From: Kappaphycus alvarezii
Lineage: Eukaryota; Rhodophyta; Florideophyceae; Gigartinales; Solieriaceae
NCBI GenBank assembly: GCA_002205965.3
Contig: NADL03000004.1
Location: 558,001 to 622,000, forward strand
DNA: 64,000 nt
Direction of reading: 5' to 3'
Shown: piece by piece, positions 14,881-40,600 of the stretch
Position numbering within the stretch: position 1 is the first letter of the stretch
Layout of the letters: every line of letters begins with the position of its first letter
The notes under the pieces: generated by a model
What the model was told of the DNA's origin: nothing
What the model saw: only the letters and a program-made list of their open reading frames with translations
Database searches by the model: none
Position numbers and translations under genes: made by a program

Positions 14881-15048
14881 TAAACACACTTGCCATTTCG
14901 CAATATGCGCCCTGCTTTAACCATGTCTAACGCTTCCCCACTGAGCGCTGCGTGCCAAGAACTGTCCTCAAGATACATTCTCCACGGACAAAGGTGATCG
15001 ATCGAACCACGCATTTGTCGTCGGATCGTGGTTGATACCGATGCTGAT

Positions 15049-15504
15049 ATGGTCGGATACGGTCGGGCTGGAATCAGACCGGCCGTGATGGTGGGTGTAC
15101 AGATGGGGCTAGGTGGTGGGAAGGCGGACCTGGGACAACAAGAAGGGGAGGAGCACAAGGAGGAAGGGGAGGATGAAGTGGAGGCTAAGAAGGCGATGAG
15201 GACTGAGAGGAATCGGCAGAGTGCCGCCGCGAGTCGGGAGAAGCACAGGCATTATATTCGGGAATTGGAGAGGCGGCTGACCATGCTATCGCAGGAGAAT
15301 GCAGAGTTGCAATGTAGCCAATTGCAAGTAATTCGGGAAAGGATTGAAAAGGAGAGACAGCTGTTGTTGAAAGGAGAACATGGAGTTGAAGAGGACGGTC
15401 AGGGCCAAGGATCAAACCCCCCCCCTCACGCACGGCCAAGCCCCGACATCTCCAGTACCACGTCCCCCCTCCCCGCTCCAAGTCCTCTCCTCCACAAACG
15501 CTGA
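15049..15504 (+). CDS. bZIP domain protein, probably truncated
   Basis: The frame contains a textbook basic region, ERNRQSAAASREKHRHYI, with the invariant Asn and Arg in the N-x7-R spacing. It is followed by a leucine-zipper-like helix (IRELERRLTMLSQENAELQ). Such proteins dimerise through the zipper and bind DNA in the nucleus. An acidic stretch (EEHKEEGEDEVE) precedes the basic region. In-frame ATGs lie at 15049 and 15088; I give the first. The frame after the zipper becomes Pro/Ser-rich low complexity from about 15415, where a run of nine C begins. From there on the DNA is LINE-like, so the true C-terminus may have been lost to an insertion. An upstream exon is possible, since an ATG frame at 14924 ends near an AAG/GTGATC donor at about 14995. 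It could be a live host gene, a relic, or an ORF carried by the LINE. Confidence 0.6.
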   Translation: MVGYGRAGIRPAVMVGVQMGLGGGKADLGQQEGEEHKEEGEDEVEAKKAMRTERNRQSAAASREKHRHYIRELERRLTMLSQENAELQCSQLQVIRERIEKERQLLLKGEHGVEEDGQGQGSNPPPHARPSPDISSTTSPLPAPSPLLHKR

Positions 15505-15579
15505 CACACCACACCCCACGCATCGGAGAACACCGATGCGTCCATGACAACAACAGCCCGCACCTCGGCGGCCCCCGAA

Positions 15580-17160
15580 AACCACCATTAGAATCGTATC
15601 CTGGAATGTCTGCGGGCTTACAAACAGCCTCTATCAACTACAACTGATACTCGATTCCCTCTCCTCCGAGACCCGGTGTCACGCATTTCTCCTGCTCCAA
15701 ACAAGAACCGTCCAACTCCCGAACAGCCTCTCAATCAAAGGGGGCTTTGTCAGCCCGCGGTTCCCGACGCCTTCATTCTCACTCGCTCTCCGCAACCGTC
15801 TACGCTCCCCTGCCCTCCATCACATCATTTTTGGCGACCTCAATACACGGCACTCCAGCTGGGACTCTCACACAAATGCACGAGGACGCGCTATCGTCAC
15901 TGGCGTTCCATCGCACAGAACTCCTCGAGTCGGGCCCCTCCTCAGCTCTCTTCCATGCGATCTCCACTGATCGCCGAAACGCAGAATGCAGAATGGCACA
16001 AGTTCATCGCCCAGGGACCCAACTCGCGCCAAAATCATTCACCAAATACTGTACATGCAAACGGTTCATGACCAAGAGCAACCTCTATTAACACTAGTCC
16101 ATTCAAGCCCGCACAACTTGCCGACCTGCTCTCGAAACAAGTATCCGTCTGGCACCAACAGGCCGGGCCGTGTGCACGGACAAAATCCACATCGAAATGC
16201 TGAAAATAACCCCCCGTCTTTCCTCCTCCCTCCTGCTTTCCTGGTGGAGTGCAGTTGGACGCACAACGCAGTACCCGTTTACGCTCACTATACAAGATCC
16301 CGGATCCCGGATATAGACACCCTCTTCACCCGGCAGGCTCACCACTTTGTCGAGTCCCTTCGGACTAAATTCCACTCCCCCGTCGACCGTATCTGTCAGG
16401 TTTCCCGAGACACCTCCGCTCACTCCCCTCACGCTGCCCACTTCACTCTCAAGACAGCCACGACCCCACTAATTCGGCGTCCGCTTTCGGCCACTGTCTT
16501 ACTACAAATCTGGAACACCCGCAGCCAGCCCGGAGCCCACATTGACTCTCATACACACACTCCACCAACTCAAGCAACTCAGAAGTACCCCCCTCCATGT
16601 TCCCTCTCCTCCACGACGCACTCTCCCCGCACGTCGCCCACCCAGATGCATGTCTAAGGACTACCTACATAGTTTTGATGCCGTGATTTCTCTATACTGG
16701 CCACAGCAGGACCCCACTTCCGCTTAACCTTCGAAGGGTACACAGAGCTCGGGCTCCTGGGCCTCCCCGAGTGTTCATAGCCTCCGAAGGCTCTTTACTG
16801 GGGTATTAAATAAAATTTCCGACGGATCTCGCGATCATATACTCAAACGCACTAATCGCGGCCAAATCAAATGGTGTCTCCTCATCCCCAAGCTTATCCT
16901 CCTGTTTTGCCGAGCTGGCCTTGTCCCCCTCCTTGTCACCTCCCCGCCGTTCAACGGACCCTTCCACAGCAAATGGGGCGAAGCGCCCCCGACCACCTGT
17001 ACCTCCAATCTGACTTTGGTCCCTTCGAACCTGCCGCCTTACCTTCATCAATTATCAAGGGTGTCCTTGATGAAATTGAACATCCAGCAGCCGGTAGGAA
17101 TCCACTACTGCATCCGTGTCGAACCGCTGGTCTGTATATCACGGCACGGACCCAGTAGAC
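15580..17160 (+). pseudogene. Second LINE fragment: APE endonuclease start and degraded downstream part
   Basis: The region opens with RIVSWNVCGLTNSL (15591), the N-terminal strand of LINE endonucleases with its catalytic Asn. It continues with FLLLQ and, near 15829, IIFGDLNTRHSSWDS and NARGRAI, the GD-N-R-W box of the family. The frame then breaks repeatedly. Between about 16100 and 17000 only GC-rich coding-like pieces remain, including a segment near 16830 (SRDHILKRTNRGQIKW) that resembles the start of a LINE reverse transcriptase, but no polymerase active site is seen. The strand and motif set match the copy at 9.56-10.68 kb. Together they show that at least one R1/Jockey-like LINE family has been active in this genome. 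Confidence 0.6.
17041..17085 (+). repeat. Arm 1 of an inverted repeat coding for IIKGVLDEIE
   Basis: About 42 bases around tcaattatcaagggtgt and tgatgaaattgaa recur in inverted orientation at 17553-17598. Both arms encode related peptides when read in their own direction (SIIKGVLDEIE here, QIINGVFDEIE there). Only a handful of mismatches separate the arms. Confidence 0.55.
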
Positions 17161-17260
17161 TGCCCCTTTTTTGAAGACGTTGGTTTTACAGCCGAGCAGG
17201 TCTTGAGATTACCAAGGACTGTCAAAGAGGCTTTGGACTCACCTCTGAAAAAGGAGAAAG

Positions 17261-17322
17261 GGCGTGCAGACAGGGAAAAGGGCGTGCAGACAAGAAGAAG
17301 GGGCGCGCAGACAGGTATGCCA
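17261..17322 (+). repeat. Short tandem repeat, three units of about 20 bp
   Basis: Three consecutive copies of gggcgtgcagacaggaaaa-like units (the third reads gggcgcgcagacaggt) lie between the two arms of the inverted repeat. Confidence 0.6.
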
Positions 17323-17456
17323 CATTGTTGCCACGACATGGTATCGATTTGGATGATGAAATCGATCCATCTGCTGGGAAAAGGCCGGTTGGCAGGTCAC
17401 CGCCTTCTGGGAACCGAGATGCAAGATACGGTGGTAGTTCTACCTGCGGTTCGCCG

Positions 17457-17700
17457 TCACAGAAATCGCCAGACAGGAAGAGGGAGAAGGAGTCTTAGAT
17501 GGGCAAGGGGCATGAGGAAAGACCCATTCCCCTTTTCAGCTCGTCCGGGATCTCCCCCTTCAATTTCATCAAAAACACCGTTGATAATTTGCGAAGGTTG
17601 TGTCACCCTCAAAATCACATGGGAATCCAAGTCGTGTCTCGGTATAACTGCAACGAGGTTCTCCTTGTTAATTGACACACCTTTGGGGCCAACCCCAAAA
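17457..17700 (-). CDS. Hypothetical remnant downstream of the Uma2-type domain
   Basis: A minus-strand frame of about 73 codons reading SINKENLVAVIPRHDLDSHV, then the IINGVFDEIE peptide, then a charged Gly-rich tail. I do not recognise a domain. It lies just after the Uma2-like region on the same strand and shares its peptide motif, in opposite orientation, with 17041-17085. It may be part of the same gene or element broken by stops, or a duplicated exon. No start codon is evident. Confidence 0.25.
17553..17598 (-). repeat. Arm 2 of the inverted repeat
   Basis: Inverted partner of 17041-17085, with aattatcaacggtgt and tgatgaaattgaa on the minus strand. The roughly 470-base spacer would allow a long snap-back. 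Confidence 0.55.
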
Positions 17701-17732
17701 AAGAGTCACTATCGTAGGCATGTCTCGGCTTA

Positions 17733-18472
17733 ACTGGAACAGACCAAACCCAGTGTCAACGGAGTGATGGCAGCGGGTCGGACCCGCCGGATGCTGGATG
17801 GTGATGGCCGACGGTATCCTGAGTCACTGGGCAACTGATAGACGATGACATTTTCGTCTTTGCGGCTGTGGAGGTCGCGGTCCACAATGACATACGTTTT
17901 CTCACCGACTGATTCATTCTCAATGTGCTTGGGACCCAAGTCTCGTTCTCGGGAAGAGCCAGTGCTTGTGTATTCCACTACCAGGTCGGGGGGATAGCCC
18001 CTCGGAAATAAATCCTTTCAGATGTCGAGGAGAGCCTACCCCTCTCCGCTTCAAACTGTCCGTTACAGATAGCAATTTCCGGACGACGTATTATGGCTGA
18101 TTTGAGGGATCTGTGTTTAGGTCTGGCCTTGTCGGAGATGTCGACGCTCTTTGAGGTCACGATGGCCCAGTTGTTATCTTTGTCCGCGCAGTTAGCACGA
18201 TACAGCTCTGAAGCGATACGCTCTACAGCTTCATCATGTTTCTTGTCGCCCATGTCACTTTCTCGCACAAGAATGCCTTGGACAAGTTCGTACCTGTCTT
18301 CAGCATAGTATGGCAGATCAAGGTACTCATGTAATGTGCATGGAACAAGGTGAATATTCCCGGGGCGATGGTGCAGATTTAGAAAGGCGTCGGAGAGAGG
18401 GAGTGGAAACGAGATAGCAGGAGGTTGATGAGTGTCAGGTTTACATGCAATTGCATGAATTATACAGGTTGG
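17733..18472 (-). pseudogene. Uma2-type (DUF820) PD-(D/E)XK nuclease domain, one frameshift
   Basis: In order on the minus strand: LHEYLDLPYYAEDRYELVQG (18324 to 18265) with the family's conserved E-x3-G, a His-containing helix (KKHDEAVERIASELY), RRPEIAI (near 18090) at the place of the first acidic strand, then PPDLVVEYTS (near 17990), then RERDLGPKH, and finally EKTYVIVDRD. This matches the Uma2 layout of P-D/E, LVVE-S, R-D-K and the YWIVDP strand. These domains have a restriction-endonuclease fold and are most familiar from cyanobacteria, where their role is poorly known. The frame changes at a run of six C (17988-17993), exactly inside the PPDLVVE motif, so one base has been lost or miscalled. 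The open frame runs from 18472 with no early ATG, so a start is unclear. Total length of about 245 codons exceeds the usual 180-200. Confidence 0.6.
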
Positions 18473-20932
18473 TCATTTCGACATGGACGCACGCGCATTT
18501 GTTCACAGCGAGGCATTACCAATATCAAATGCATCTGTACTTACAACATTTGTTATGTGAAGGTGATTACTTCAGCAACGTACTAAAGCTAGTGATTTAG
18601 AACTTTATATATGTAGGTTGAGCTATCCAAAGTCACTGAACTAAAAGTAACGAGTACGAACTACTTTACTTGACATTTAAGTTCAACACGACCAAGACTA
18701 ACACCTTGATCACCGTAAGTTTCGTACCTGGACTAACCGCCAGCTTTTGTTCAAACCCCATCAAAAATACCACAATGAGGAGAATGATCTCTTGTGAAGA
18801 ACAGGAAGGAAGGGACTGTGGCGGCGATGAGGAGCCGGTCGTTTCCATTTTCCAGCCTCTTCCGAGCTTCTGTTTCTGTGCCAGAATGGGCGGCTTGATA
18901 TGTGTCAAGTCTTGTGCAGTACTGTACTGTACTGTACAGTATAGTAGAGCAAACCCTGAATAAGATAACACTAAATCGTTTATGTGTTGATCTGTGGTAT
19001 GCACACACTACCAGATCTACAGTATAGTATACGCTAAGAAAAGGCAGATAATGTACTGTACAGTAGTGTCAAGAGTGAATCGGAGAATTCTGCGGTATCA
19101 ATACGACCGAACAATGGATTAAATCCTTTTCGCTGGTACCCTAAAGTTACATATTTTAAAAAATGACGTATCTTCAGTACCGATAGATCTAAGGCAATTC
19201 TGACTCGGTAAACTATAGAGCAAAAAATTAAAAAACATCTATTTAACACCGAAGCCTCCTACATGCAGTAAAAAAGTCTCTGAACCTTTGTTATTTATCA
19301 TTTTACCAACTTTGACGCAACAAACAACCAAAACAAGGAAGTCGAACCATCGTACCGCTACAGTATCGCTAGAAAGCATGAGGATCTTTCCGGATACCAC
19401 TGTTTTGCGCCTTTTTTTACTCCTTAGACTACCGTTTGGATTAAACTGCTACGAATAGATGTATCGTAAAGACCTCGGCGATTTTGGTTTTAAAGTTTAT
19501 GGTCGCAGTTGTTTGTGATTTGCTTCCAATAGCAGGCGAACCTTGTCTTGAGGTGTTTAAGACCACTTTTTTTAATTTCTGTCGATTTTTCGGGTCAAAA
19601 AATTTCGTCCTGTGGATTGAGAAAATGATCCTTTCACGGAATGGTCTTTCGGATATTTTTATCCCGTCTGAGCCTGCGGAGTCTACTCTGAGTAGTTCAT
19701 TCTGGCACCTTGTCTTACGTTAAGTGTTTTTCCATTCATAAATACAAAAAAATATGAGTTGATCTATTCAAAGAGGGAAACGTGGGGTTGGACAGGATTT
19801 GCGCGTTCTAAGCGACTTGCATCGCAATCATGTATTTCTAAGGGGATGTAGTTGACCTTTGGATAGCAGTCCCTCGCTCGGCTAGCGACAGATCGTGCCA
19901 CCTCCGTCAGACGGGATAAGGCTATTAAGGTAAAAGAGTGATGAACATTTGAGACCACCTTCGAACAGTATCGGATAGTCAAAAGGTGATTTCATCCGCT
20001 CCGCCTCTAGTTTTCCATTGTCAGATCGAGATTGAGTATACTACTGGAGAGATGAACTCGTTTCAAACATATGCCGGAACTAGATTCAAAACGTAACCGT
20101 TTTGAATTCCGTACGTAGTCGTTTGTTGCATTTGATAGCGTGCATTGCAGTCGCAGCTGATGGGTCGAAAGTGTTTTGGAATGAACCTAGTAATTGAGTT
20201 TACATGGGCCTTCGCACTTGGCCGTAGAAACGAGAGTGTAGTGCTTGCTCGTTCACTGTACATAACATTACGATGAAATATAGTTCATGCGATTATTGGT
20301 TATCAACTGGCGATCAAACCGGTCCTGAGATAAGTCGTGGTGAATTTCGGAATCGAGATGTGGTAGTGGATAGCAAGATTAATAGGGAAAGGTTCCGAAT
20401 GCTCGGTGCAGCAAATTGTCAGATGCTAGAATATTTTTTTTGTTTTCGCGAATGGTCAGCGGATGATTCTCCATGCCCGTAACCTGGTTTACGTGGTCAG
20501 TTAACAATCGCCTCGGCACGAATCCGTGCTTCAATATTGAGACACAGAGACAAGGGCAGCCCTCATCGCCACTGATGCTGGCTCCTTTTTTGTTGTAATG
20601 AAGTTGCTGCCATGCATGGAACGGGCAAGATGAGTTGAAGTGGACTTTAAATTGACAAGCCAGGCTGCGTTTGCTGATTTAATGGAATTTGTCTGCTAGC
20701 ACACATCTGATGTCGCGACATGTCTAAATTTTGGTATCAAGACGTGCAAAGTGTGAAGGTTGATTCCTCGCTGTTTTGAGACTGAGCGGGGCTCTGTAAA
20801 TTCAAGTCGGCCGGCATTACAGTATTATGTAAAAGACTGCTGTGGGACTACCTTGTGGTTACTTGATGATCTGCATACAATTCCATTCGCCACACGAAAC
20901 GTTCAAAAATCAATGGAAAGCTGCAGAAACGG
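18473..20932. other. Gene-poor stretch with isolated TACTG motifs
   Basis: No gene recognised. Pentamer motif arrays occur at 18916-18945 and 19051-19064. Frames such as 19484-19723 and 20273-20482 (plus) are short and without motifs. Confidence 0.4.
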
Positions 20933-21288
20933 TGTAGAGGGCGTATTTTGGAACGCACGAAGGGGTGCGGGCTGATGTATGCGCTGACGAAGAGGATAGC
21001 TAAAGCAGAGTAGTTTTTTTGGTGGTAGTTTGTTGCCGGTATCCCCCCCTTGATGGGACTGGCCACCCTAATATATATTATTTAATTTGCGCCGTGCGGC
21101 TAGCGCATAGCGCCATAAAAAACAGATAAAGCTACCCAGAATGAAAATATCTAGAATCAGTAGCTACTGTAGTCCCCACAACACCTTCCGGCAGTGCCCC
21201 ATAGCGCTGCAGTGCGTGGAGTGTGGTTAAATGGCGAGATCGCATTTGCGGCACCCCTTCCACAAACAAACCCAGAACTGGCGCAACA
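20933..21288 (-). repeat. 3' LTR of the gypsy element
   Basis: Direct copy of 27772-28129. The best conserved part is the 100 bases around cagaatgaaaatatctagaatcagtagct and the following cacaacaccttccggcagtg. The sequence just inside (21289 onward) is G-rich on the minus strand, as a polypurine tract would be. Confidence 0.8.
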
Positions 21289-21612
21289 CAATCCCCATCC
21301 ACATCACACCACGAGGGGTGACTGTTCCTTAACACCATCTACTTTCGGCCGGCCTCCTCGCTTACCGTTTTCACTCCTTTATCAGCCCGCCCGCGCCATC
21401 GGTCGTGATCCCTTCGACGTGTTGGTTTGTTCCTTCCGATCGGTGACCGTAGATGGTGCGGACTAAACAGACTGCCCGTTAACCTACGAGTGGTAAGCAG
21501 CCCTCGAAGGAGTTAGCAACAGAGGCTGCAAGGATGGCGCGGGGAGGCTAGCGGGTTCTTTCTCAAGCGAGATGGGAAGGTAAAGTCTAGTTGGGCGCAC
21601 GAAGGCGTTCCC

Positions 21613-22864
21613 GTGAGAGCGGGGGAGACAGACTTCCGGACGGCAGGTAACGAAGAGCTAGCTGAAGTCCTATGGCTCTTGTGCGGGCGCCGAGATCTCG
21701 AGGAAATTGAGAGCACCTTAGAAGGAGCGGTCAAGGTCACCTTCGTGCGGACAGAAGAGAACGAGAGATCCAGAGACGAGTTATCGAGGGTGTTCTAGTG
21801 GAGTTCGCTGCAGCGTCCCCCAGGGCTCTTGACAAGAAGACCATTGCGAGAAGCGGCCTCACAGAGTCCGTACTCGACACCGAACAGTACGGGGCCCTGG
21901 ACCCAGATCCGGACTTTGTCATGTTGTGCATCTGGCTTTCCTTTGGGAACGGTAGGGAGAGGGAAGGGTCATATCGCGCTCGTTCAGAAGAGGACCCTAC
22001 TCCCCACGCCATCTTGCCGTACACCACTGAGTGGCGCCCTTTGGGGCCTACCCCTGGACTATCCGTGGATACTATCGCTGCCATGAACGAAGTGCCCAGA
22101 GCTCGCTGTATCCACGAGAGAGACGCTTGGTGCACGAAAAATCCAGGGAGGGTGAAGGAAGTCAACGTCGCGATGGATCGTCCCCCTTCGCCTTACCCGC
22201 ACCTTAATTTCTTCAGGGATCAACCCGTTTCCATCAAGCACCGCACAGACCAATACATGCTGGAGGCGGTAGTGAACGGAATCGCCCTCCTGTGAGGAGA
22301 AAATCAAGCTCGGACTCTTTGGGAAACGGCCTACAAGACCTTGATTGACCAACGGAGAGAAGGAGGTTACCCCAAATCGCTTCGCGCGTTCGATGATATC
22401 TGGAAGCTTCTCCGCGGGATCCCATCGACCCAGATATTATTAGACAGGCCCAATAATATGGAGGGGAGTTCTTCCTAGGGTCCATATGTGGTCGACTTCA
22501 ACTTCGAGTGGCTGAGACGACTGCATTGTCGGCCGGAAACGGCGGAGTTGTACGTCCTGCGGATTCAGGCCCGTGGCGGGCTCAAGAACGCTGCTTGTGT
22601 CGACCTTCGGACATCCAGTTCCGTCCTTATTGATTGCGCGGAAAAGTATGCGATGCGGCTTTCCATGAGTCTTTTAGTATTTGCGCTTGTGGTAGTACAC
22701 CCTCCCACTTTGGAAGCTTCAGCGATGTTCGCAATATACGCTGTAGCGGCTTGACCGAAGCTGAGCTAGAAGCGAAGAAGGAGCGGAAAAGACAGCACAA
22801 AAGGCAGTGCAGGGCCTCCAGGAAACTCGCTCGTATCGAGCCGGTCAATTCCGGTAGCGCGTAG
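21613..22864 (+). pseudogene. Antisense additional ORF (aORF) of the gypsy element, disrupted
   Basis: On the strand opposite to gag-pol, coding-like sequence runs for about 1.25 kb. Its pieces are 21613-21795 (ELAEVLWLLCGRRDLEEIES), 21798-22292 (165 codons, with LTESVLDTEQYGALDPDPDF and FFRDQPVSIKHRTDQYMLEA), and, after a TGA but in the same frame, 22296-22475 (QARTLWETAYKTLIDQRREG). After a further TAG the same frame continues from 22488 (FEWLRRLHCRPETAELYVLR), then switches near 22634 to a very basic tail (AKKERKRQHKRQC) ending at 22864. Polyadenylation-like AATAAA follows at 22931. The longest minus-strand frames here are shorter and less protein-like. I find no known domain. Some plant gypsy lineages carry an antisense ORF in this position, so this could be a comparable accessory gene, now decayed. 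Confidence 0.55.
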
Positions 22865-22930
22865 ACTTAGAGAAGATGTTTCATTCAAACATTGATGCAT
22901 TCCCCTGGTTCATGTTACGCATACATAAGG

Positions 22931-22943
22931 AATAAAGAATAAA
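22931..22943 (+). terminator. Tandem AATAAA polyadenylation-like signals after the antisense ORF
   Basis: AATAAA at 22931 and AATAAA again at 22938, 67-74 bases past the antisense ORF stop and on its strand. The gag-pol strand has no use for them. Function is inferred from position only. Confidence 0.35.
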
Positions 22944-23106
22944 AGGGACTTCTTGGGTGCTTTTCGCGTAGGTCGTCCCTAGACTTGATACTATAGGAGG
23001 CCTTCCGGCCGCAAATGATATTTGCGGAGACACCGGGAGTGAATCTCCTGGCGCGAAAATCTCCCATGCGGGAAGCGTAAAACATAACGAGGGTGCGACG
23101 CGCGCA

Positions 23107-24000
23107 CTACCTCACAAGGGCCAAAGAATTTGACTGCAGAGTAGGCCACTTCACCCCTGGGAATACCCTTCCATAAGCAACCAAAACTTGATCACCGTTA
23201 GAAAAACGGGTTCCTTCAGCATCTTTATTCCCCGCATTCCCGGATCTCAACCTTCGTTCTGTTCGCTCGTTCGCGAGCCCCAATATTTCAACACGACGGT
23301 CCTCTTTTCTTAAAGCGAGAACCTTTTTCCGCTCTTCCGAGCCCATAAGGCGGGGCTCGACCCAGTAAAGAAGTTCAAAGGGGGACACTCCATTGGTGAC
23401 CGGACGGTGTCTATATCCAAAGACGCACTTGTCCAAGGCGTCTGCCCAGTCCATCACGTCGCGAACCACCTTACCCGCACTTGACTTTAACGTTAGCCCC
23501 ATCCTTTCGGCCCGGCCGTTAGACATAGGGGAATAAGCCATTACCGTACGCCACTTGATTTAATGTTCTCTCATGAAGTTTACAAGTGCAGCTGCGGTAA
23601 AACAGCTGCAATTGTCGCTGATAATTGTGCGTGGTGGTCCAAATGGCCTGATGATCTCCGCAGTTATAAACCTTATCACTGTCGGACCCGTGGCATCGCG
23701 TGTCGCGCGCGCGATTGGCCACCCTTTCAGATGCTCCATACATATCAAGATATGGCGGTGGCCCTCCCTTGATGAGCTCATCGGGCCGGCGAAGTCAATA
23801 GAAAATGTAGAGAAGAGTCCTGTGAGCGGTAACCCCAGCATACGAACGTACTGAGGGGTTCCGCGCATGCGTTGGCACGCGTAGCAAGAACTAACATACT
23901 CGTGGATGTCGGAAGTCATCGTGGGCCACCAGAACCGCTCCTGCACGAACCGACGGGTGGTCCGGACATCCTAATGGCCTACATTTTCGTGCAGAAACAT
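23107..24000 (-). pseudogene. Gypsy integrase
   Basis: Integrase inserts the cDNA copy into the host genome. The H2C2-type zinc region is visible in its second half (WWPTMTSDIHEYVSSCYACQ, C-x2-C near 23885). The catalytic core follows with SIDFAGP (first Asp), TIISDNCSCF (second Asp) and NGRAERM (Glu), so the DDE residues are all present. An in-frame TAA at 23560-23562 splits the domain just before MAYSPMSNG. The C-terminal part (FSNGDQVLVAYGRVFPG) matches the small beta-barrel region that follows gypsy integrases. The frame ends near 23107 with no chromodomain that I can see. Confidence 0.85.
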
Positions 24001-24101
24001 TAAAATATCCAGGCACTTAGTAGTTTTGGCGACGACTTTGGGCCCTGCCTTGGTTCGGCGAAACAGGCGTCCATCCCAGATTAGAAAATTATCGGCCATC
24101 A

Positions 24102-24698
24102 TTATCGCTTTTTTCGTTCTTCCGGAGGAGCGTCGGATATGTCCTCTGCGGACAAATAATTCCGCACGAGCACGAGGTAGGTCTCAAGTTTCCCGCCGTC
24201 GAGGACTTCAGGGGATTCCCCGACTAGCAAAAGGTCCCCTTCATCGTTTTTAGTCCCCTTTTCCACCTCTAGCGCCAGACGGGAGTGCTCGTCCGCGGAC
24301 CCATTAAATTTTTCTGACCGGTAACGGATAGCATAATCGTACTCCGCCAAGAGTTTGGGCCACCGGGCCAGCCTACTATGTACGTCCTTCCTCTCGAACA
24401 CATCCCTTAGAGATCTATGGTCGGTGATCAGTTCGAAGTGGTGATGGGAGAGGAGATAGACGCGGAAATTTCGCAATCCAAAAAACACTGCTAAAGCTTC
24501 TCGCTCACACGCCGAGTAGCGCTTTTCGGCAGGGTTCATTGTGCGACTTGCATATTGTACGGGGTGTATTTCCCCGTACAATTGTTTCTGGGACGGAACG
24601 GCGCCAACTGTTGTGCTTGACGCATCTGCTTCCACTATTAATGGTTTCTCGAAATCGGCGAAAGCGAGGAAAGGCGGGGAGGTCAGTGCTTTCTTCAA
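24102..24698 (-). pseudogene. Gypsy RNase H domain
   Basis: RNase H removes the RNA strand during reverse transcription. Recognised from LIVEADASSTTVGAV (catalytic Asp with the family's DAS box), PVQYASRTMNPAEKRYSACE (with the conserved Glu at its end), LITDHRSLRDVF (TDH) and ADEHSRL near the end (the family's AD-LSR box). It follows directly on the RT connection region (24983-24729, with LLGHIVNKNGVQVDP and AGYYCRFIKDFA) in the same class of frame. Confidence 0.85.
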
Positions 24699-24728
24699 CG
24701 TACTGAAAGACTCCTTTTGTACCTCTTC

Positions 24729-25474
24729 CTATCCGAACTTCTTCTTCTTCGAATTCAAAGCATGCAGAACGGCTGCTTTTTCTGCAAAGTCCTTGATGAA
24801 TCGGCAGTAATATCCGGCCAGACCCAGGGAACTACGGACTTGTGTAGCGTTAGCTAGGCTCCAGATGTCCTGTATCGCCTGTATATCCCTTGGGTCGACC
24901 TGCACGCCATTCTTATTGACAATGTGTCCCAGAAGATCAACCTGATCTTGTGCGATGTGGCAATTAGTGAGCTTCAGCTTCAATCTATGCTTCTATATTA
25001 CGCTATGACAGCTGACAAATGCTCTAAATGATCCTCTAAGGAAGTGCAAAACACCACTACGTTATCTAAATATGCTCGGGCGAACTTTATGCCCTCCAGA
25101 ACTTGGTCCGTCATCCTTTGGAACGTCGAAGGGGCGTTCATCAGGCCAAAAGGCATGACCTCAAACTGATAGGTCCCATACCTGCAAACGAAAGCGGTTT
25201 TCTTCTTGCATGATTTCTCAACTCGAACTTTCCAAGAGTCACTGAAAATATCAAGGGAAGTGAACACCGTTGCACCCCTCAAAGCATAGAAGATCTCTTC
25301 TGCTTTCGGTAGGGGCCAGCGGTCACCCTTCATCCGTTGGTTCAACGTCTGGTAGTCATTACAGAAACGAGGCTTGCCATCTTTCTTCGTTGCGATGACC
25401 ACTGGGAGGTACCATGCGGATGATGCAGGCCTGATTATCCCAGCTGCTAACATTTTGTCCAGCCTTTCACGCAC
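24729..25474 (-). pseudogene. Gypsy reverse transcriptase with mutated active site
   Basis: RT copies element RNA into DNA. Motifs in order: SAWYLPVVIATKKDGKPRFC (fingers), VFTSLDIFSDSW (first catalytic Asp, D in SLD), TYQFEVMPFGLMNAPSTFQ (the family's FG-NAP box), then YLDNVVVF where YLDD is expected. Loss of the second Asp should abolish polymerase activity. A frame change lies between 24998 and 24983, within the connection to RNase H. Confidence 0.85.
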
Positions 25475-25663
25475 GAGCTAATTCTGTTTCGGTGGCAGAT
25501 GACGCCTCCGGTGTTAGATGCGTGTGTCGTCTGTTAATACGAAAGAGTGGTCAGCCGACACCTTGGAGGGGCGCAGATCGAACAAAGATTCAGCGACAAC
25601 TCCGCTTCCTAATATGACCTCCTTGAACTGTTCCTTCTCTACATCGGGTAGGTGAGACAGCTT

Positions 25664-26332
25664 CTACTCAAGTGCGTCGGTGAACTTCGCCATACTTTCA
25701 TATTCCCCCAAGGGCTCATCGCAACTACCCTGGATTGTCAAAAAGAGTCCCACATCTTCGGAACTCTCATCTCCACTTCCGGAATTCCCTGAACCTTCCT
25801 CCTGAGATGGAACTACAGAGGACGACGAAGTGAAGTCCTCGCTATCAGTCCCCGCTCCTCCCTTGACAAGGTCTTCTGAGGTCAAGCGGGCGAAATCTGG
25901 GAGCCAATCGAGCACGGTAGTCCTTGATTCGTTCCCCAATGCCACAGCACTCGTCCGGTAATCTAAGATGACCTGGAAAGCTTCCATCGTCGGCTCACTA
26001 ATTAGAACGTCGAAAGGTCATCCTTCCACGACTATAAAATCCAACCGAACCGCTAGTCCCCCGAAGGATACAGGTGTAATCTTCAAGATAGCGTTCATTT
26101 GGCACTTCAAATCTGTTGCCACGGTGATGGTGCGGTTAACCACCTCCGGCGTCACATCCAGTTTTGCTGCAAACTCAGCCGAGACTATATCCGGCATTGC
26201 TCCTGTGTCGAATAGTGCATGCGCATTCGTACCAAAGACGTTAACTTCGACAACCTTGAGGCAACGTTTCCTGCCCTGAGGCCTTCCCCTAACTGCTCCG
26301 ACAGTTGCACCACTGAATAGGTCCTTGAGCAC
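25664..26332 (-). pseudogene. Gypsy aspartic protease and linker
   Basis: The protease that would process Gag-Pol is identified by ALFDTGAMPDIVSAEFA (26224-26174), equivalent to the retropepsin D-T/S-G-A motif, after VEVNVFGTN. The linker at 25987-25664 is acidic and Ser-rich (SGDESSEDVG). The protease frame opens only at about 26341, after the gag frame has stopped at 26359. There is therefore no overlap that would permit an ordinary gag-pol frameshift. Confidence 0.75.
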
Positions 26333-26358
26333 CCCTTGCTACCTTATACCGTCGCCCT

Positions 26359-27750
26359 TCAAGAGTTACCCGAACGATATGTTCGAGGTAGCATTGGCGA
26401 GAGCATTGGGAACGTTCTACTGTACTTCGGGACATACTCGGAGATATCGCGTATTTCAGTGGTCGTCATATCATTCTTCTCGGTGTTCTTCTTTTTGGAC
26501 TTTTTGTCTATCGGCTTCTTCTTTTTACCAGTAGCTTTCTTCTTCCTCTCCATCGAAGCAGCTGGGCGTCTTAGAAAGAAGTCTAGAGGATCCGAGTGCC
26601 CTACAAGTGGAGGTTTCAGTATTGAAGCGATGGGGACACCTTGGACCCTACCGGGCAGCCGCCGTGACGGCTCCTCGCCCGCGTCGCGTGTAACACATAG
26701 ATCTTCTTCACTTTCCGAGCCACCGATAACGACCGAAACAGTCTCCTTTCCGTCCTCATCGTCTGATTCTTCTCCATAGGAATCAGCAATTGCGACGGAA
26801 ACCTTCTGCGGAGGAAATTCCTTCCTCCTGCGGCTCCAAAAACTCGCTTTCGAATGCTCTTTCTTGCCACACTTCAAGCAACGGATATTGCGATGGGGGT
26901 TATCAGGGCAACGGTTTGGTCCATGCCCTGTCTTATGACAAAAAGAACGAAAACGGTCACAAACCATTTGTGTCGGGTTAGCTGCCCCAAGATTGGAGGT
27001 TTTAATCGAATCTTGTTGCCTCTGCTGCTTTTTGATCATCAATTAAAGGTCTTGGAAGGCAGTGACAAGACTGTCAACCTTACCTTCGACCTCTGCCAGG
27101 CGAGATTCGGTTCGGACCAACGACCGGGGTGCCTTCTTTTCCGCGGCCATGATCAGGATCCTTTGATTCTCTACCTCATTGCATTCGCTCATCCCCGCGC
27201 TACGGGTCAAAACAGGGCCATAGTTCTTTTGAGCCGATGAAAATGCCTTTATATAATCATCGAAGTCGGAAATGACTTTCTTCAAAGCCTCATAGCTCTT
27301 AGAACTACGTTAGATAACGTACGGAACGAGATCGGAAATTTCTATTGCGGCATTAGGAAGGAGTCCGAACTTAGCTTCCTCGTCAAACCTTGCCAGCCCG
27401 TAGAGGTAGTCCATTCTCGAATCAGATTCACTTAGACGCATTAACCCCAGCCTAGCGTCAATTGCACGACAAATTATGTCGTCCGGCTCATGTTTCTTCT
27501 CGAATTTATCCAGGAATGCTTTTTGAACGACAGCGTAGTTCTGTCCTCCTGCCAACAGTGATTCATTCTCGCCTGTAAACCTCTGATAAAAAAAGTCGAA
27601 CGCTTCTTCGTCTAGGTGAGATAGAAGCTCGAGCGACTTTTTTTCGTCATCTTTACCGCGCATCGCGACGTGTTCGAAGAAAAGGAAAAATTTATTCACG
27701 TCGGAGTCCTCAGGGAAAGTATGGGGTCGACGCTGACGCGGACGCATCAC
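26359..27750 (-). pseudogene. Gypsy gag with degenerate zinc knuckles
   Basis: Gag forms the particle shell and binds RNA. The capsid-like N-terminus (FPEDSDVNKFFLFFEHVA, then ESLLAGGQNYAVVQKAFLDK) begins about 20 bases inside the 5' LTR. Stops at about 27310 and 27043 cut the frame into three pieces in one register. The nucleocapsid part has FCHKTGHGPNRC and CLKCGKKEHSKASF. Each is a CCHC zinc knuckle missing one cysteine (the first Cys in one, the last in the other). A Lys-rich tail (KKKATGKKKKPIDKKSKKKN) follows. Confidence 0.75.
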
Positions 27751-27771
27751 CGTTGCTCGACAGCAGTAACA

Positions 27772-28129
27772 TGTTTAGGGCGTATTTTGGAACGCGCGGG
27801 GGGTTGAGGGCTGGTGTATGTGCCGACGAAGAGGATAGCCAGAGAAGTGTACTTTTTTGGAGGGAGTTTGGCCCCGGCTCCTCCCCCCCGTTGATGGGAC
27901 CGGCCACCCTCATATATATTATTTAATTTGCGTTGTTTGGCTAGCGCACAGCCCCTTAAAATACAGATAAAATTACCCAGAATGAAAATATCTAGAATCA
28001 GTAGCTATAGTAGTCCCCACAACACCTTCCGGCAGTGCCCCATGGCGCTGCAGTGCGTGGAGTGTGGTTAAATGGCGAGATCGCACTTGCGGCACCCCTT
28101 CCACAACCAAACCCAGAACTGCCACAACA
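27772..28129 (-). repeat. 5' LTR of the gypsy element
   Basis: Direct copy of 20933-21288, with the same TGT and ACA ends. In element orientation it lies immediately before gag. The 20 bases between LTR and gag do not obviously match a tRNA primer site. Confidence 0.8.
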
Positions 28130-28870
28130 AACGAGACAGAGTACAACAACTGAGACGGGCAGAGCGAAGTCGCTTTGCGCCAGTACAGTACAGTACAGTA
28201 CGGTACCTTTACAACACATTGTTCAGACGGAACACAGTACTGTACTGTAGTACAATAAATTACAGTACACTGTACTACGAGCTTTGTGGAGAAGGGCCAA
28301 TGCAACAGATTAGGGCACCCAATACAGTATCTTACAGTGCAGTCCTTGGTGCCAAAAATTTATGAACGTCAACGGCAAGAAGTATGATAGTTTGTCAGGG
28401 TTGATATGAAGGGAGGGAAGATTTTCCATTAAAATTTGGGGGGCTTGCGCGAGGTGCTGTTAACAGCGAAAAAAAGGGAGGGTAAAATGGGGGCTCCAAA
28501 ATGGCAGGGTGCCAGTGGCCCAATTTGGAATGACATCTAGTGATTGGGTCATTAGTGTACAGCCAATAAGAAGTCGACAATGGAAGCAAAACGGAGATAC
28601 TGCGTTCAACATTACAGCAGTGCATAATCAGCGGAATAAAAATGCTGTTTTGGATGCTTGCAATGGTGCTTGCGCCGCTTCAGTTGCCTCGTCACAGACC
28701 GCCATCCACCAATATAATTACAGTACTGTAATTGTGGCACCGTATTCGATGCTTTTGCTCATACTCTGCTACACCGCACCACCCACATTTCAGGACTGAA
28801 ATGTACTAGTGTACTGTACCATGCGTACAGTACACCACTCTTCTCGTGCACCAGCCAGTCAGCCCAGCAC
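28130..28870. other. Spacer with dense TACTG arrays
   Basis: Pentamer arrays lie at 28187-28204, 28236-28254 and 28262-28276, and again at 28720-28732 and 28804-28835 (GTACTGTAC and its tandem forms). No gene is recognised. It forms the upstream region of the RING gene. Confidence 0.5.
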
Positions 28871-35697: not shown

Positions 35698-36478
35698 ACT
35701 GTACAGTACATGTAGGGCAACCCCCTCCTTTGTTCTTGCGAATCTACACAAGAAGAGTGCCGCTCTGTGTCAGCCATAGCTTGGATTCGATTCATTTCAG
35801 CCGACAAGACATTTTATTTTTTGGTTCAGTTTGTGACTGTGTTACACAAACGCAAACGGTCCAATTCCTTTTGTATTTGGCCATTTCTAATCCAATTTTC
35901 TACTTTTAAGAATAACACTACCGACAACAAATGTATTTGAAAAGAATCAAATCAAATTACAAAATCTTCCAATTCCCCATCCAATCAAACGGTTTACTGG
36001 AACTATTTTAATTTGTATCACAATCTTGTAGATATATCGCAAATCTTTCCCAAAGGGCATCGGAGGGGGACACATATGCTTTTGCGTAAATTTATGCTTG
36101 GTCCGCAGAGGCCTCAATTCCAATGTGCCCTTTCATTTTCATTCCCAACCCTACAAATAATACTGTCTTGTCCTGTTCCATCTGCAGTACAGTACAACAC
36201 GATAATATACTGTAAGCCTATACCATGCAATTTATTCAAAGCCGCATCCCGTACAGTACTGTCGTACGGTACAATCTAACCCCCCGGTCACCATCATTCA
36301 GTTCAACTTACTGTACGTAAATCATCTCCAGACAATAATCCATTCGCCCCAAGCTGGAACGCAATACTGTACCCGTACAGTACAAGACAGTAGTATACCG
36401 TAGAATACCGTACAGATCCATACAGAGTACAGGACAGGAGAGGACAGTACAGTACAGTACAGTACAGTAAAATAACCC
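35698..36478. repeat. TACTG-rich region upstream of ALG1
   Basis: Motifs at 35698-35709, 36184-36192, 36250-36272, 36364-36384 and a perfect (CAGTA)n run at 36446-36470. The last lies about 95 bases before the proposed ALG1 start at 36567, so it falls in the promoter or 5' leader. Confidence 0.8.
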
Positions 36479-36566
36479 TAACGGAGACAAATTGCCATGG
36501 TCATTCGTCCTTCCGCCGACGGCCCATGCGAGTCCATGCCGTCAATCTCCCCATCGCCTCCACCTC

Positions 36567-37905
36567 ATGGACCTGCTGTACGTCATCCTCCTCCCCTTTG
36601 CACTAGCACCGCCCATCCTACTCTACCTCCATCTCCGACCCCCCCTTCGCCCAAATCCAAAGCTACTCTAGTCATCACTCACACCCCCGGCAATCACTCC
36701 CCGCGCGCCCTTGCCCACGCCCATTCACTCCTGCACCACTCCCCACATCCCGTAGTCTTCCTCTCCCTTCCCCCGGCCCCCGCCCCACACCCCTCCCTCA
36801 TCCCTATCACCATTCCCCCGCCCCATCCAACACACACCTCCCGTTCCCCACTTTCCCTCCTCCGAAAGCTCTTTCACCATGCCCAAGCCCTCACAATCTC
36901 CCTCTACCACGTCTCCCGCCACACCACCCCCACCCATCATCCTCAACACCCCCCCATCCTCCCCATCCTCCCCCTCCTCCTCCTCCTTCGTCCCCTTCTC
37001 TTCCCTCACGCACATCTCACCATGGATTGGCACAACCTCGCCTACTCTCTCATGCGTGTCAACAATGTCCATCCCATGCTAGTCTCCCTCGCCAAACTCC
37101 TCGAACTCCTTTTACCACGCGCTGCACACAACCACTGGACCGTGTCCAACGCCCTACGACATCATCTTCACCTTTGCGCCGCTCTCGAGTCTACAGTCGT
37201 GTATGATCGCCCTCGACATCCCGCCCCCTCACCTCTCACCCCGCGCTCGTGTATCCCGTAACCACATCTTGCATCGTGCCGGTGCACATGCTACTGTATT
37301 CGGGCCTCGTTACGAGTTTAACCCAAATGACGCGACGTCCACACATGCGCCGGCTGTCGTTATTAGCAGTACTAGTTGGACTCCAGATGAGGAGTTTGAT
37401 ATGCTCCGTGGATGCCATTCGAGATTGGGAGAAGCGTGGGAAAAGAGTCGTCGTATTGATTACAGGCAAGGGGCCTTTGCGTCTGCAGTTTGAAACAAAG
37501 ATCGATGCTATGGGTTTGAAGAGTGTGGCCGTGTGGTTTGTGTGGGTCAAAATAGAAGAGTATGCGCCGTTGGTGGCCTCTGCAGATGTGGGTGTATGTT
37601 TGCATGCCAGTTCGAGTGGCCTGGATTTACCTATGAAGGTGGTGGATATGTTGGCTTGTGGTGTGCCGGTCGTCGCGAGACGGTTTCAGTGTTTAGATGA
37701 ACTTGTGAGAGAGGGTGAGACTGGGATTATGTTTGAGGATTGGCATGGGTTGGTTGATGGTGTTGATAGGATCGTTTGGAAGGGGACAGGCGCTGAGTTT
37801 CGAAGGAAAATAGAAACATTGTTTGAGGGCCTGACGTGGGAGAAAGAATGGGAGAGGCATGCGTTGCCAACGTTGGTGGGCTTGGAGAGGAAGCAGGAGA
37901 CATGA
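36567..37905 (+). CDS. ALG1: ALG1-type beta-1,4-mannosyltransferase (GT33), frame changes three times
   Basis: ALG1 adds the first mannose, from GDP-mannose, to dolichol-PP-GlcNAc2 on the cytosolic face of the ER in N-glycan assembly. An N-terminal membrane helix (MDLLYVILLLPFALAPPILL, from 36567) is followed by THTPGNHSPRALAHAHSL, HPPILPILPLLLLLRPLL, the signature LTMDWHNLAYSLM (about 37020), WTVSNALRHHL and VVYDRP. Then come VVISSTSWTPDEEFDML, VVVLITGKGPLRLQFET, the donor-site block LHASSSGLDLPMKVVDML, and FQCLDELVREGETGIMFED. All family landmarks are present and in order over about 445 codons, the usual size. The frame shifts near 36639-36668 (beside a run of seven C), at about 37241-37245 and at 37403-37408, with no residue lost or gained in the alignment I can make from memory. 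Introns do not fit at the third site. Either the sequence has indel errors, the gene is recently dead, or frameshifting occurs. Confidence 0.85.
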
Positions 37906-40600
37906 TAACGTACAGCGGTGCAGCAGAAGGGGAGTTGAGGGTGAATGACTGGGCAATGTGCAAAACGTGGAGGCTGTCGCGAGACGGAAGATTTGTCGAG
38001 GGTAAAGTGGACGGTGTAAATAGGGTATTGGTGTCATGAAGGATAGCTCCTAGATCAGGTGAACGTGATATATCGCCGATCTTTTAAACGCAAGTGCTCC
38101 CGGAGCTGAATGAGACGAATGTGATTTCCAAAACGCGGTGTTGGTAAACCTGGTATGGGGATAGCAAGGGAATTGGAAGGCTGTGATTCGATGCGCTGCG
38201 CTCAAAGTCGTTTCTACCCCTGCCACCTGGCACGCTTCGTGAAGGATGTGGGAAGCATGGCAAAGATGAAATAGAGCTGTGGTTTAAAGGTTGACGTAAG
38301 AGAGATGAGTATCGGAGAAGGTGCGAGAAACTCGCGACAGCGGTTGCGGTTGGTATAGTATGAGTGCGGATGGGGTTGTCTCGTGGACTGTGTCTGGGTC
38401 ATCTCTCAATAGAGATGTACAGGCTCGGTGTGAATGATGGGTCACATGTTTGTTGCGAAAGTGGAGAAAAGATACAGAAGATGAGATGTAGGGGTTGTGT
38501 GTGTGGAATTAATGGTGGAGCAGAGATGGGAGGCGAGGGGGCCGAAATGGAGAGAATGAAATGGGGTGCTGCTTGCAGATTATAATCTAATTCGTAATTG
38601 CTTTGGGTGGTTATGGTTGAGTCTTGTGCAAAGTCACAATGCGGTGAGATACTCTAGGTACGTAATGCACTGTACAGTACTGCACAGGACAGTAAAACGT
38701 AACCGCTACCTGATCCAAAATAATCTAGCCCAAATTATGGTAATTCCGTAGATGTGTGGTCACTCTAAGCTTATTATTTCCACTGCGTGTAGTCAACTAG
38801 AGCTCCCAGACTGCGAATCATCTGAATCCAAGAAACCATGTCACGACATAAAGTCCAAATGCAAACTGACCCTCGACGCAACCGTTTCGTAACACTACTG
38901 TTTCCCGGCGGTACCATGAAACAATCTCACCAACTGCAACACGTAAAGAGAAGGTATCCCAGAGGGGGCGCACCATTGCCCACATGTTTCAATAACACAC
39001 GCCATCTCCCTTGTGTAAGCTACATGTCCGTTACGCAAGATTCTATTCCCCAACCAACCCCCCTGCACCACCATTGCAACCCGCATTGTCGCACGCCACT
39101 ACCGACTAGACCCTCGCGTCCATTCCCTTTGTTTCATCATGCGTTTTGATCGTAGATTACTCTATGACCATATGTACTGTACTAGCGATCCCCGCACACA
39201 ACTCGTACATGTGCGCGTGTACGCTAGGGTATTGCAGTACAGTGTGACATGTATCGGGGCGTGTGCGTCTGGTCGGGGTGTGCGAATTGCTTGGACAATG
39301 CCGCGGATGTGCGGTGGGGCATGGATGTGGCGTTTGAAACGCTGGTTTGCGGTGTGTTTGGTAGGAGGGGGGTGTGACGTTGGGGGATGCGTCTAGTGGG
39401 GGTGGGATTTCACATTGGATATGGTTATATTTGCGGAGATTGGGGGATGTTTTGAACCGCACCGCTGGTGAGTTGGAATCTTTGCTTGGTGGGTGTGGGC
39501 GGGTTTGCACTGGTGCCTGGAGTGGGGATGGGAATTGGGGGTCGCTGAGGTTTACTGTAAGACTGTATTTACTGTATGTTTTGGATTTTTTGCTGTATGC
39601 ACGTGGCCGACGTGGAACATCTGATTGAGTTTGTAACCGTAATTCGGATCCTTCAGTGAACACGATACTGTACGGTAGATGGTAAAACTTCGCACTGTAT
39701 TACCGTGCATGTTCCTTTGCGGTGGCTGTTGTTGACGTCAGCAACAATGAGCTTGCTAATGTTGGCAATTACCGAGCCAGGATATTACTGCACGGTGCTC
39801 CTGTGAAGTACCTATAGTGCAGTACTGTACAGGACTGTGCAGAATGTAGAGGTAAGCAGGTATGTATGTATGTAGGTAAAAGTGAGTGCCGCCCGTACCA
39901 GAGACAATGAGGACATCATTTACTTATCTACTTGTACTACTGTACTATGGTGATTTGCGCCCCTACACATACCGTGCTTTGCGGCCCGCTACCACACCAC
40001 CGCTGCTACGATTCGCACACGCATCTACCAGCGCCTCAGTTGTGCGCTTCGGCCATTGGTGTGGCCAACACATCTCGGGCTTCACTGCACGTGATTGATG
40101 TGAACCATCCAGTTACGGCAAATCTCAGCGACACATTCGGTCAGTCTGTGTACATTTCAAGAGCCGCAAGGAGTGAATAATGCTGTTGTTTATTTCGTAT
40201 AAGCTGTAGGGATATAATTTATTTAGTAGCGCTCTTCTGTTCATGTGAGAATGTACCAACACAGACTAAACAGTGCTACAACTAATCATAACTTTCATTA
40301 CACAGTTCTGTACTGTACGGTACAGTACATGGTACAGCCCTGCCGTACAGTATCTGTGCAGTACAGTATGGGCACGGTATAGTACAGCGCGCGAAACATA
40401 GCGTTGGCACTGTTCCCAAAAACCTGTGAGGGCGACGGCATGGTTCAGCCGTCAACTGAAAATGTCCTCAGTCTAGTCTAGCCCAACTCCTGCATGGGGC
40501 AGGTTTCTGACCACATTGAAAGAAACCTCCACAAAAGCTCAACTTCCCCATGCACTCATCCATATTTCACGGTCCAAGAACGCATATTACAGTAACAAGG
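37906..40600. other. Spacer with TACTG motifs, no confident gene
   Basis: Motifs at 38669-38682, 39173-39181, 39235-39242, 39664-39672, 39821-39831 and the cluster at 40308-40386. Between 38960 and 39600 the plus strand goes from C-rich to G-rich, as within the neighbouring genes. A frame at 39374-39628 includes ISHWIWLYLRRLGDVLNRTA, but I recognise no family. Confidence 0.35.
40308..40386. repeat. TACTG / GTACAGTAC cluster at the island edge
   Basis: Reads tgtactgtacggtacagtac and, after a gap, ccgtacagtatctgtgcagtacagtat. It marks the last dense array before the AT-rich transposon block begins. Confidence 0.85.

Follow-up and report, generated by a model that had tools for sequence, protein, structure and literature searches.

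A broken allele of a nuclear Uma2-family gene in the red alga Kappaphycus alvarezii, with a second group of copies inside a non-autonomous LTR element

The window analysed here, a 64-kb stretch of the Kappaphycus alvarezii genome, contains one broken copy of a gene that would encode a Uma2-family PD-(D/E)XK domain followed by a C-terminal tail of charged repeats. We read this copy as the dead allele of a nuclear gene whose relatives in the genome form two clades, group A, which includes the window copy, and group B, which is carried as cargo by an LTR element; the probability of this joint reading is, in our estimate, roughly 0.8. We infer that both groups encode a metal-dependent DNA endonuclease, which would have been under selection for some time and whose copies would now be mostly decaying. 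Group A would have spread by segmental and tandem duplication, and group B would have been copied by gypsy enzymes acting in trans. All positions given without a contig are window positions, obtained from coordinates on the window's contig (C4) by subtracting 558000, so that the window corresponds to C4:558001-622000; numbers with the prefixes C and L denote contigs and loci.

The window copy and its unbroken allele

A Uma2-type nuclease domain had been proposed in an earlier note on this DNA, and Pfam profile searches bear the proposal out. Two minus-strand reading frames match PF05685 independently and in profile order, with frame A (17978-18472) covering profile positions 2-69 (E=1.8e-5, 24.8 bits) and frame B (17730-18017) covering positions 95-151 (E=1.1e-4, 22.2 bits), each half alone being slightly below the curated cut-off of 27 bits. 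The match is not a chance one, because an unbroken allele on contig C679 (L030:205-1593, read from stop to stop, 463 aa) matches profile positions 2-148 at 1.2e-16 and 61.2 bits. When aligned with the known family (PF05685 / COG4636 / DUF820; PDB 1wdj, 9y1l), the proteins keep E, PD, E, K and Y-V-I-V-D, and the catalytic pattern PD...E...K is present in L030 as RRPDIAI, PDLVVEYTS and the K of DLGPKHIEY; PE replaces PD in the window copy. In phmmer comparisons with PDB 9y1l, group B reached 1.2e-10 and group A 0.1, none of seven proteins matched the NCBIfam profiles, and Rfam and tRNA scans of the 64-kb window found nothing. Downstream of the domain, the unbroken C679 protein continues with F-x-x-V-G-F-T-A-E-Q-V-L-R-P-P, about nine heptads (eight of them EKGRADx), YATLLRRHGIDVDDDID and a serine-rich end.

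The window copy is larger than the span of 17733-18472 first assigned to it. Pieces that align to the C679 protein lie at 18780-19007, 17984-18472 and 17772-18011 on the minus strand and at 17080-17307 and 17238-17492 on the plus strand, and window DNA at 18781-19218 matches the C679 stretch immediately upstream of the Uma2 block. The parts of the gene and the neighbouring features are collected in Table 1.

Table 1. Features of the window around the Uma2 gene
Feature	Position	Strand	Evidence or remark
LINE debris (endonuclease-reverse transcriptase fragment), 3' of gene	15017-17042	+	common to C679 tandem units, 95.5%
40-bp inverted duplicate of 17559-17598, source of DEIE peptide	17041-17080	+	85% identity
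Inverted segment, rest of Uma2 gene	17081-17782	+	gene orientation in C679
Uma2 domain, C-terminal half (frame B): P-D-L-V-V-E...K...Y-V-I-V-D	17783-18017	-	PF05685; 90% aa identity to unbroken allele
Uma2 domain, N-terminal half (frame A): catalytic core start, R-R-P-E	18018-18432	-	PF05685; 82% aa identity to unbroken allele
342-bp TG...CA insertion, read as solo LTR	18433-18774	.	not in C679 allele
5' part of Uma2 open frame (N-terminal ...SSPPQSLPSCSSQEIIL)	18780-19007	-	90% to residues 1-71, C679 frame
Ty3/gypsy element	about 20940-28140 (approximate bounds)	-	LTRs about 20923-21288 and 27763-28129
Glycosyltransferase gene (ALG1-like by eye)	36400-38000	+	PF13692 5.2e-14 for 37207-37905

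Comparison with C679 reveals three kinds of damage. The 342-bp insertion, flanked by a 5-bp target duplication (ATGAG, 18428-18432 and 18775-18779), interrupts the reading frame close to its 5' end, in the N-terminal coding part, and the end of this insertion matches 30 other places among the 40 matches listed. The two halves of the domain are separated by a frameshift; the earlier note had joined them at a run of C, but this run is identical in the unbroken allele, and the frames part about 15-20 bases upstream of it in the window relative to C679. An intron in place of the frameshift was considered and rejected, as the unbroken allele reads straight through. Finally, the 3' part of the gene now lies on the plus strand because the block at 17081-17782 is inverted. 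This block encodes the F-x-x-V-G-F-T-A-E-Q-V-L linker, heptad-like EKGRADK repeats and a YATLLxRHGID tail, and about 670 bp that follow in C679 are absent from the window past the inverted block. Since contigs C460 and C619 hold the 17081-17313 part of the block in the C679 arrangement, and it is inverted in the window only, the window's haplotype is probably the one in which the inversion took place. A DEIE peptide next to the domain, also pointed out earlier, does occur twice, but its reading as a protein repeat is rejected, as it derives from two copies of a 40-bp inverted DNA repeat. With these three lesions, the window copy is a dead allele and, taken by itself, an ordinary case of decay.

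The assignment of C4 and C679 as allelic rests on the glycosyltransferase gene, which occurs at exactly two places in the genome, C4 and C679:1214003-1215589 (96%), together with a similarly spaced group B Uma2 gene on the same side of it, at about 145 kb on C4 and about 154 kb on C679. C679 carries a tandem array at 1224700-1246800 (L029-L031) of three full-length Uma2 copies and one partial copy, spaced by about 7.1 kb and 92-94% identical in DNA to the window copy, and the 7.1-kb unit contains Uma2, LINE debris and a Harbinger transposase. The four copies are the unbroken 463-aa frame, a copy whose frame changes once, in the repeat tail, another whose frame changes both near residue 85 and in the tail, and a fourth without its 5' part. 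This arrangement is an allele-specific tandem amplification; the window allele has a single broken copy. Both of the neighbours between which the gene had been placed, LINE debris and a gypsy element, were found. The former matches PF14529 at 3.3e-5 for 15548-15970, slightly below the family cut-off, and the latter has a reverse transcriptase (PF00078, 1.2e-18 for 24998-25477), but the gypsy element is present on one allelic contig only, C4 and not C679, and is independent of the Uma2 gene.

Copies in the genome and their origin

In the 336 Mb and 884 contigs searched, PF05685 exceeds the family cut-off at 21 places, nine of group A (four on C679, two on C558 and one each on C715, C733 and C710) and twelve of group B (two on C595 and one each on C813, C784, C21, C137, C837, C668, C679:1060k, C735, C635 and C4:739k). 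The window copy is missing from these since both of its halves fall below the cut-off alone; with it and further group A copies on C204, C460 and C619, the copy count that had been suggested as a check comes to at least 25 places. A DNA search found single window-like copies on C460 (88%) and C619 (87%), both with stops. After merging of alleles by the author, there are about 12 Uma2 loci, about five of them in group A; the sequence of C4:739130 and C635 (group B) and of the second C710 pair (group A) was not read. The group A locus L069 (C204:37300-39500) holds a 483-aa open frame with its own 21-residue tail repeats, which are near-identical in DNA (98-100%). Greatly expanded paralogues are common to the known Uma2 family and to this genome. 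Relative to that family, group A differs in its long C-terminal repeat tail and group B in its N-terminal extension and its position in an LTR element, and the copies described here are nuclear and in a red alga.

Selection on these copies was assessed by Nei-Gojobori counts. Old pairs (L036-L069, L041-L046, L041-L047 and L040-L041) give dN/dS of 0.28-0.33, with dS near saturation for L036-L069 and L040-L041. The other, recent pairs give 0.50-0.77 and one fragment pair 1.40, and the allelic pair L040-L045 has zero changes in 135 codons. The four window pieces range from 0.28 to 0.86 against the unbroken allele, rough values based on few changes. One of these pieces meets a shifted stretch and the L030-L030b pair meets a frame change, which makes both ratios rough, and five pairs have saturated dS and hence yield no ratio. 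Given the ratios of the recent pairs and of the window pieces, present constraint is weak or gone, and the family seems to have been long kept and to be now loosening or dead in most copies.

A phylogeny, likewise suggested as a check, was built from 38 rows comprising five group A and six group B sequences, L049 (described below) and 26 hand-picked bacterial sequences; the other A copies, the broken-frame B loci (L039, L042, L045 and L048) and the planctomycete rows L052 and L054 were left aside. It places A and B separately. Group A and L049 form a branch supported at 95/94, and group B forms one supported at 98/95 within a strongly supported group (100/98) that holds Chroococcidiopsis, Stanieria, Nostoc, Thermomicrobium, Methylocella and others. 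The row nearest A has a long branch and belongs to an actinobacterium, Mobilicoccus (87/70), and not to a cyanobacterium; A and Mobilicoccus, with planctomycetes, fall in the same part of the tree as the cyanobacterial 'LTAEQ' class (Trichormus, Oscillatoria, Microcystis) with weak support (78/88). A tree that forces A, L049 and B into one clade costs 40 log units, and the AU test rejects it (p=0.0014); the test does not reject a single clade of A from which L049 is left out (p 0.37). The earlier note had raised a transfer, ancient or recent, and the tree calls for two separate origins from bacteria-like sources. Within the sampling used, this number of two is likely, not certain, because the tree program warns of long branches. 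The source of group B would lie inside the class that holds Chroococcidiopsis and Nostoc, and that of group A, weakly placed, beside the 'LTAEQ' class.

The strongest competing account of this origin derives both A and B from the cyanobacterial ancestor of the plastid through endosymbiotic gene transfer, with later capture by transposons. The host has a primary plastid, as is established for red algae, and B belongs to a class with many cyanobacterial members while A lies beside another such class; however, the class holding B covers several phyla beyond the cyanobacteria, and the tree and the AU test speak against A and B as one clade, so that we regard a common plastid origin as unlikely. 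Identity between group B proteins and those of cyanobacterial plasmids reaches 38%; from two listings of plasmid records, 12 of 39 and 9 of 72 were used, chosen by hand. In tblastn searches of plasmids, neither the group A protein nor L049 had any match, and group B had none among phages; searches of viral contigs gave 69 pattern matches for the group A query and 9 for the group B query, none of which was confirmed.

L049 (1080-2778 of the locus) is a 352-aa protein related to group A, with which it shares the N-terminal motif, the linker and the repeat tail. It lies close to one end of JALZUS010000051.1, which is assigned to a Bdellovibrionales MAG. This contig is likely chimeric with eukaryotic sequence because G+C rises across the L049 gene from about 0.32 to 0.53. 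A search for L049 DNA in the present genome found no match, which is a weak empty result. If L049 does belong to a bacterium, it would be a close bacterial relative of group A, and the transfer that gave group A could have been more recent, with a source lineage outside the sampling.

Mobility of the two groups

The possibility that the gene is the nuclease of an undescribed mobile element, also raised in the earlier note, is not supported for the window copy and group A, where no flanking direct repeats were found, and is supported for group B, which was found in a non-autonomous LTR element. For group A, an autonomous or cut-and-paste element with Uma2 as its nuclease would be in keeping with the roughly five loci and with the Harbinger transposase in the C679 tandem unit. 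It would also fit the movement of a gene-sized unit, read from the sequence in common between the C460/C619 copy and C679, which extends over only about 1.1 kb around the gene. Against such an element, flanking direct repeats are absent from all eight group A stretches (four loci after merging of alleles and near-copies, with 2.2 kb covered at L069 and 6 kb at L037) and from around the Uma2 gene in the window. A comparison of the flanks of other copies, also suggested as a check, found the group A subfamilies to have no flanks in common, other repeats aside, in stretches of mostly 9-10 kb. In addition, the C460 copy is truncated at its 3' end within the repeat tail and Harbinger is not beside the window copy, and we hold a mobile element of this type to be quite improbable for group A. 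Harbinger and LINE elements were both rejected as carriers of group A.

Group B Uma2 genes lie inside a non-autonomous LTR element and are antisense to it. At L040, direct repeats of 332 bp (97.9%) stand on either side of Uma2 and define an LTR of 329 bp, and at L041 repeats of 241 bp (96.7%) define one of about 237 bp; between loci that are not alleles, LTR identity is about 70-83%. The LTR ends read TGAAACA...TGTTTCA. The complete element measures 4,189 bp at L040, between CAGAG and CAGAG, and 2,799 bp at L041, between CTCAA and CTCAA. A genome search with the group B LTR gave 18 matches, including single LTRs on C692 and C513 flanked by CAAAC/CAAAC and TCCCC/TCCCC, so that perfect 5-bp target duplications are present in all four group B insertions with both ends intact, two of which are solo LTRs. 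Intact ends were not found at the candidate LTR on C119 (L084). The allele of L040, L045, has a truncated LTR pair, and seven of ten group B loci show one LTR or fragments.

In the direction antisense to Uma2, one LTR leads into CTGGTAGCATCGC, which has the TGG form usual for a primer-binding site (PBS), and a purine tract, GGGAGGAGGCAATGG, stands just before the second LTR. The PBS/LTR junction was present in all ten group B loci read, several of them with mismatches, and the purine tract/LTR junction in four of the ten. The PBS/LTR junction pattern, loosened to fit the mismatches of all ten, was absent from all other loci compared, a set that excluded L001-L008, which cover the same places in shorter form. 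As a 20-base sequence with at most one mismatch, the junction occurs 177 + 206 = 383 times in the genome, and its reversed control 0 + 0 times. For 19 of the 100 junctions listed from these 383, the matching strand has a Ty3/gypsy integrase at a distance of 4,503-4,764 bp downstream, and no integrase in any other arrangement was found within 6 kb of the 100; this pairing used 150 scored of 616 candidates, minus three self-hits, and when the integrase positions were moved by 50-150 kb as a control, 0-2 pairs resulted. Two gypsy partner copies are identical to L040 over 24/24 bases at the LTR end and PBS; the 0.7 kb examined did not reveal the start of the partner LTR, and the rest of that LTR is unlike L040. 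Since the ends and primer site are shared with this gypsy family, group B is presumably copied in trans by Ty3/gypsy enzymes.

An open-frame listing found no frame of gag-pol size in L040 or L041, and two internal L040 frames had no match in Pfam. The only gag-pol trace in L040 is a Ty3-like integrase remnant (Ty3 chain 7q5b, E=0.0098) on the same strand as Uma2 and against the PBS orientation, which the author reads as a probable nested fragment. Although this remnant opposes it, the antisense orientation is favoured by the PBS and the partner integrase, and a group B gene in the same sense as the retroelement was rejected. The element resembles LARD-type elements in its TG...CA LTRs, 5-bp target duplications, PBS, purine-rich tract, solo LTRs and ends common to an autonomous Ty3/gypsy family, and differs from them in carrying an antisense bacterial-type nuclease gene. 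Were the direct repeats merely scars of tandem duplication around ordinary host genes, one could point to the group A array on C679 as proof that such duplication occurs and to the seven of ten group B loci without a visible full LTR pair. The TG...CA ends with perfect target duplications in 4/4 intact insertions, the PBS and purine-rich tract in place and the junction shared with a gypsy family at a fixed distance from its integrase leave that account very little room.

Two further observations concern these ends and LTRs elsewhere in the genome. At C312:1757-14203, C523:237624-243865, C588:394668-400784 and C467:2078970-2085057, the PBS/LTR junction is repeated at regular intervals of about 3.0-3.1 kb, in runs of up to five, as head-to-tail arrays of a short element that has these ends. 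C1 holds a diverged LTR related to that of group B, and a copia-type gag (L082, 3206-4071) is found about 2.8 kb downstream of it.

Nuclear setting and possible role

The assembly contains 22 matches to light-harvesting proteins and 17 to phycobilisome linkers, several of the two kinds on contigs of at least 1 Mb; a plastid genome is far shorter than 1 Mb. Nuclear light-harvesting and linker genes together indicate a red alga, and the PDB entries matched by one light-harvesting gene, L070, include 7y5e, the Porphyridium complex. Linker genes are located on the Uma2 contigs C460, C619, C813, C837 and C668, each of about 1-2.3 Mb. These five contigs and the allelism of C4 and C679 bear out a bacterial-type domain in a eukaryotic nuclear genome, and because of them assembly contamination, which the earlier note had named as one of two outcomes that would undo its reading, is excluded. 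Contamination by a cyanobacterium or another associate, the least credible of the alternatives, could appeal to the mainly bacterial distribution of Uma2 and to the identity of group B with cyanobacterial plasmid proteins, but it is contradicted by the five linker-bearing contigs, by the allelic pairing of C679 with a contig that carries eukaryotic transposons, a RING gene and the glycosyltransferase gene, and by a WGR/PARP gene adjoining the group B element L040. The latter gene (WWE/WGR/PARP, L040 6927-9290) has an open frame that continues into the LTR.

In the literature, Uma2 is described as a likely solo toxin that is greatly expanded in cyanobacteria (PMC2701414), DUF820 as a PD-(D/E)XK nuclease with the structure PDB 1wdj (PMC1913061), and a cyanobacterial Uma2 gene as serving as a marker (PMC11603126). 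Uma2 has also been reported in eukaryotes, as endonucleases listed in a table of horizontal transfers to Diversispora epigaea (PMC8227670) and as F2SXP0 in Trichophyton rubrum (PMC4102429). As far as those accounts go, these cases resemble ours in placing a bacterial Uma2 in a eukaryotic genome, with transfer invoked for Diversispora, and differ in concerning fungi and giving no mobile-element context, where we find two clades in a red alga. Among literature titles and the opening parts of abstracts, a range that takes in few subscription papers and no bioRxiv preprints, none placed Uma2 in red algae or in a retroelement, and Uma2 and a retrotransposon were mentioned together for strawberry fruit only.

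With regard to role, there are weak grounds for thinking that a captured DNA-acting nuclease benefits its element or locus, or acts as a stress or defence factor, rather than serving a core cell function. A bolder version, which we find doubtful, is a red-algal selfish retroelement with the antisense Uma2 gene as a working part whose product would cut chromosomal DNA and thereby open sites for integration or recombination, or would act like a toxin that punishes loss of the element, copied in trans by gypsy, with group A as an older branch of such selfish nucleases now resident in the host. On our preferred reading of a dead window allele in a nuclear family of two clades, the presence in a red alga of two apparently separate Uma2 clades, one of them the antisense cargo of an LTR element, would provide a eukaryotic setting in which the role of Uma2 can be tested, and it suggests that bacterial genes can spread within a nucleus by way of a retroelement.
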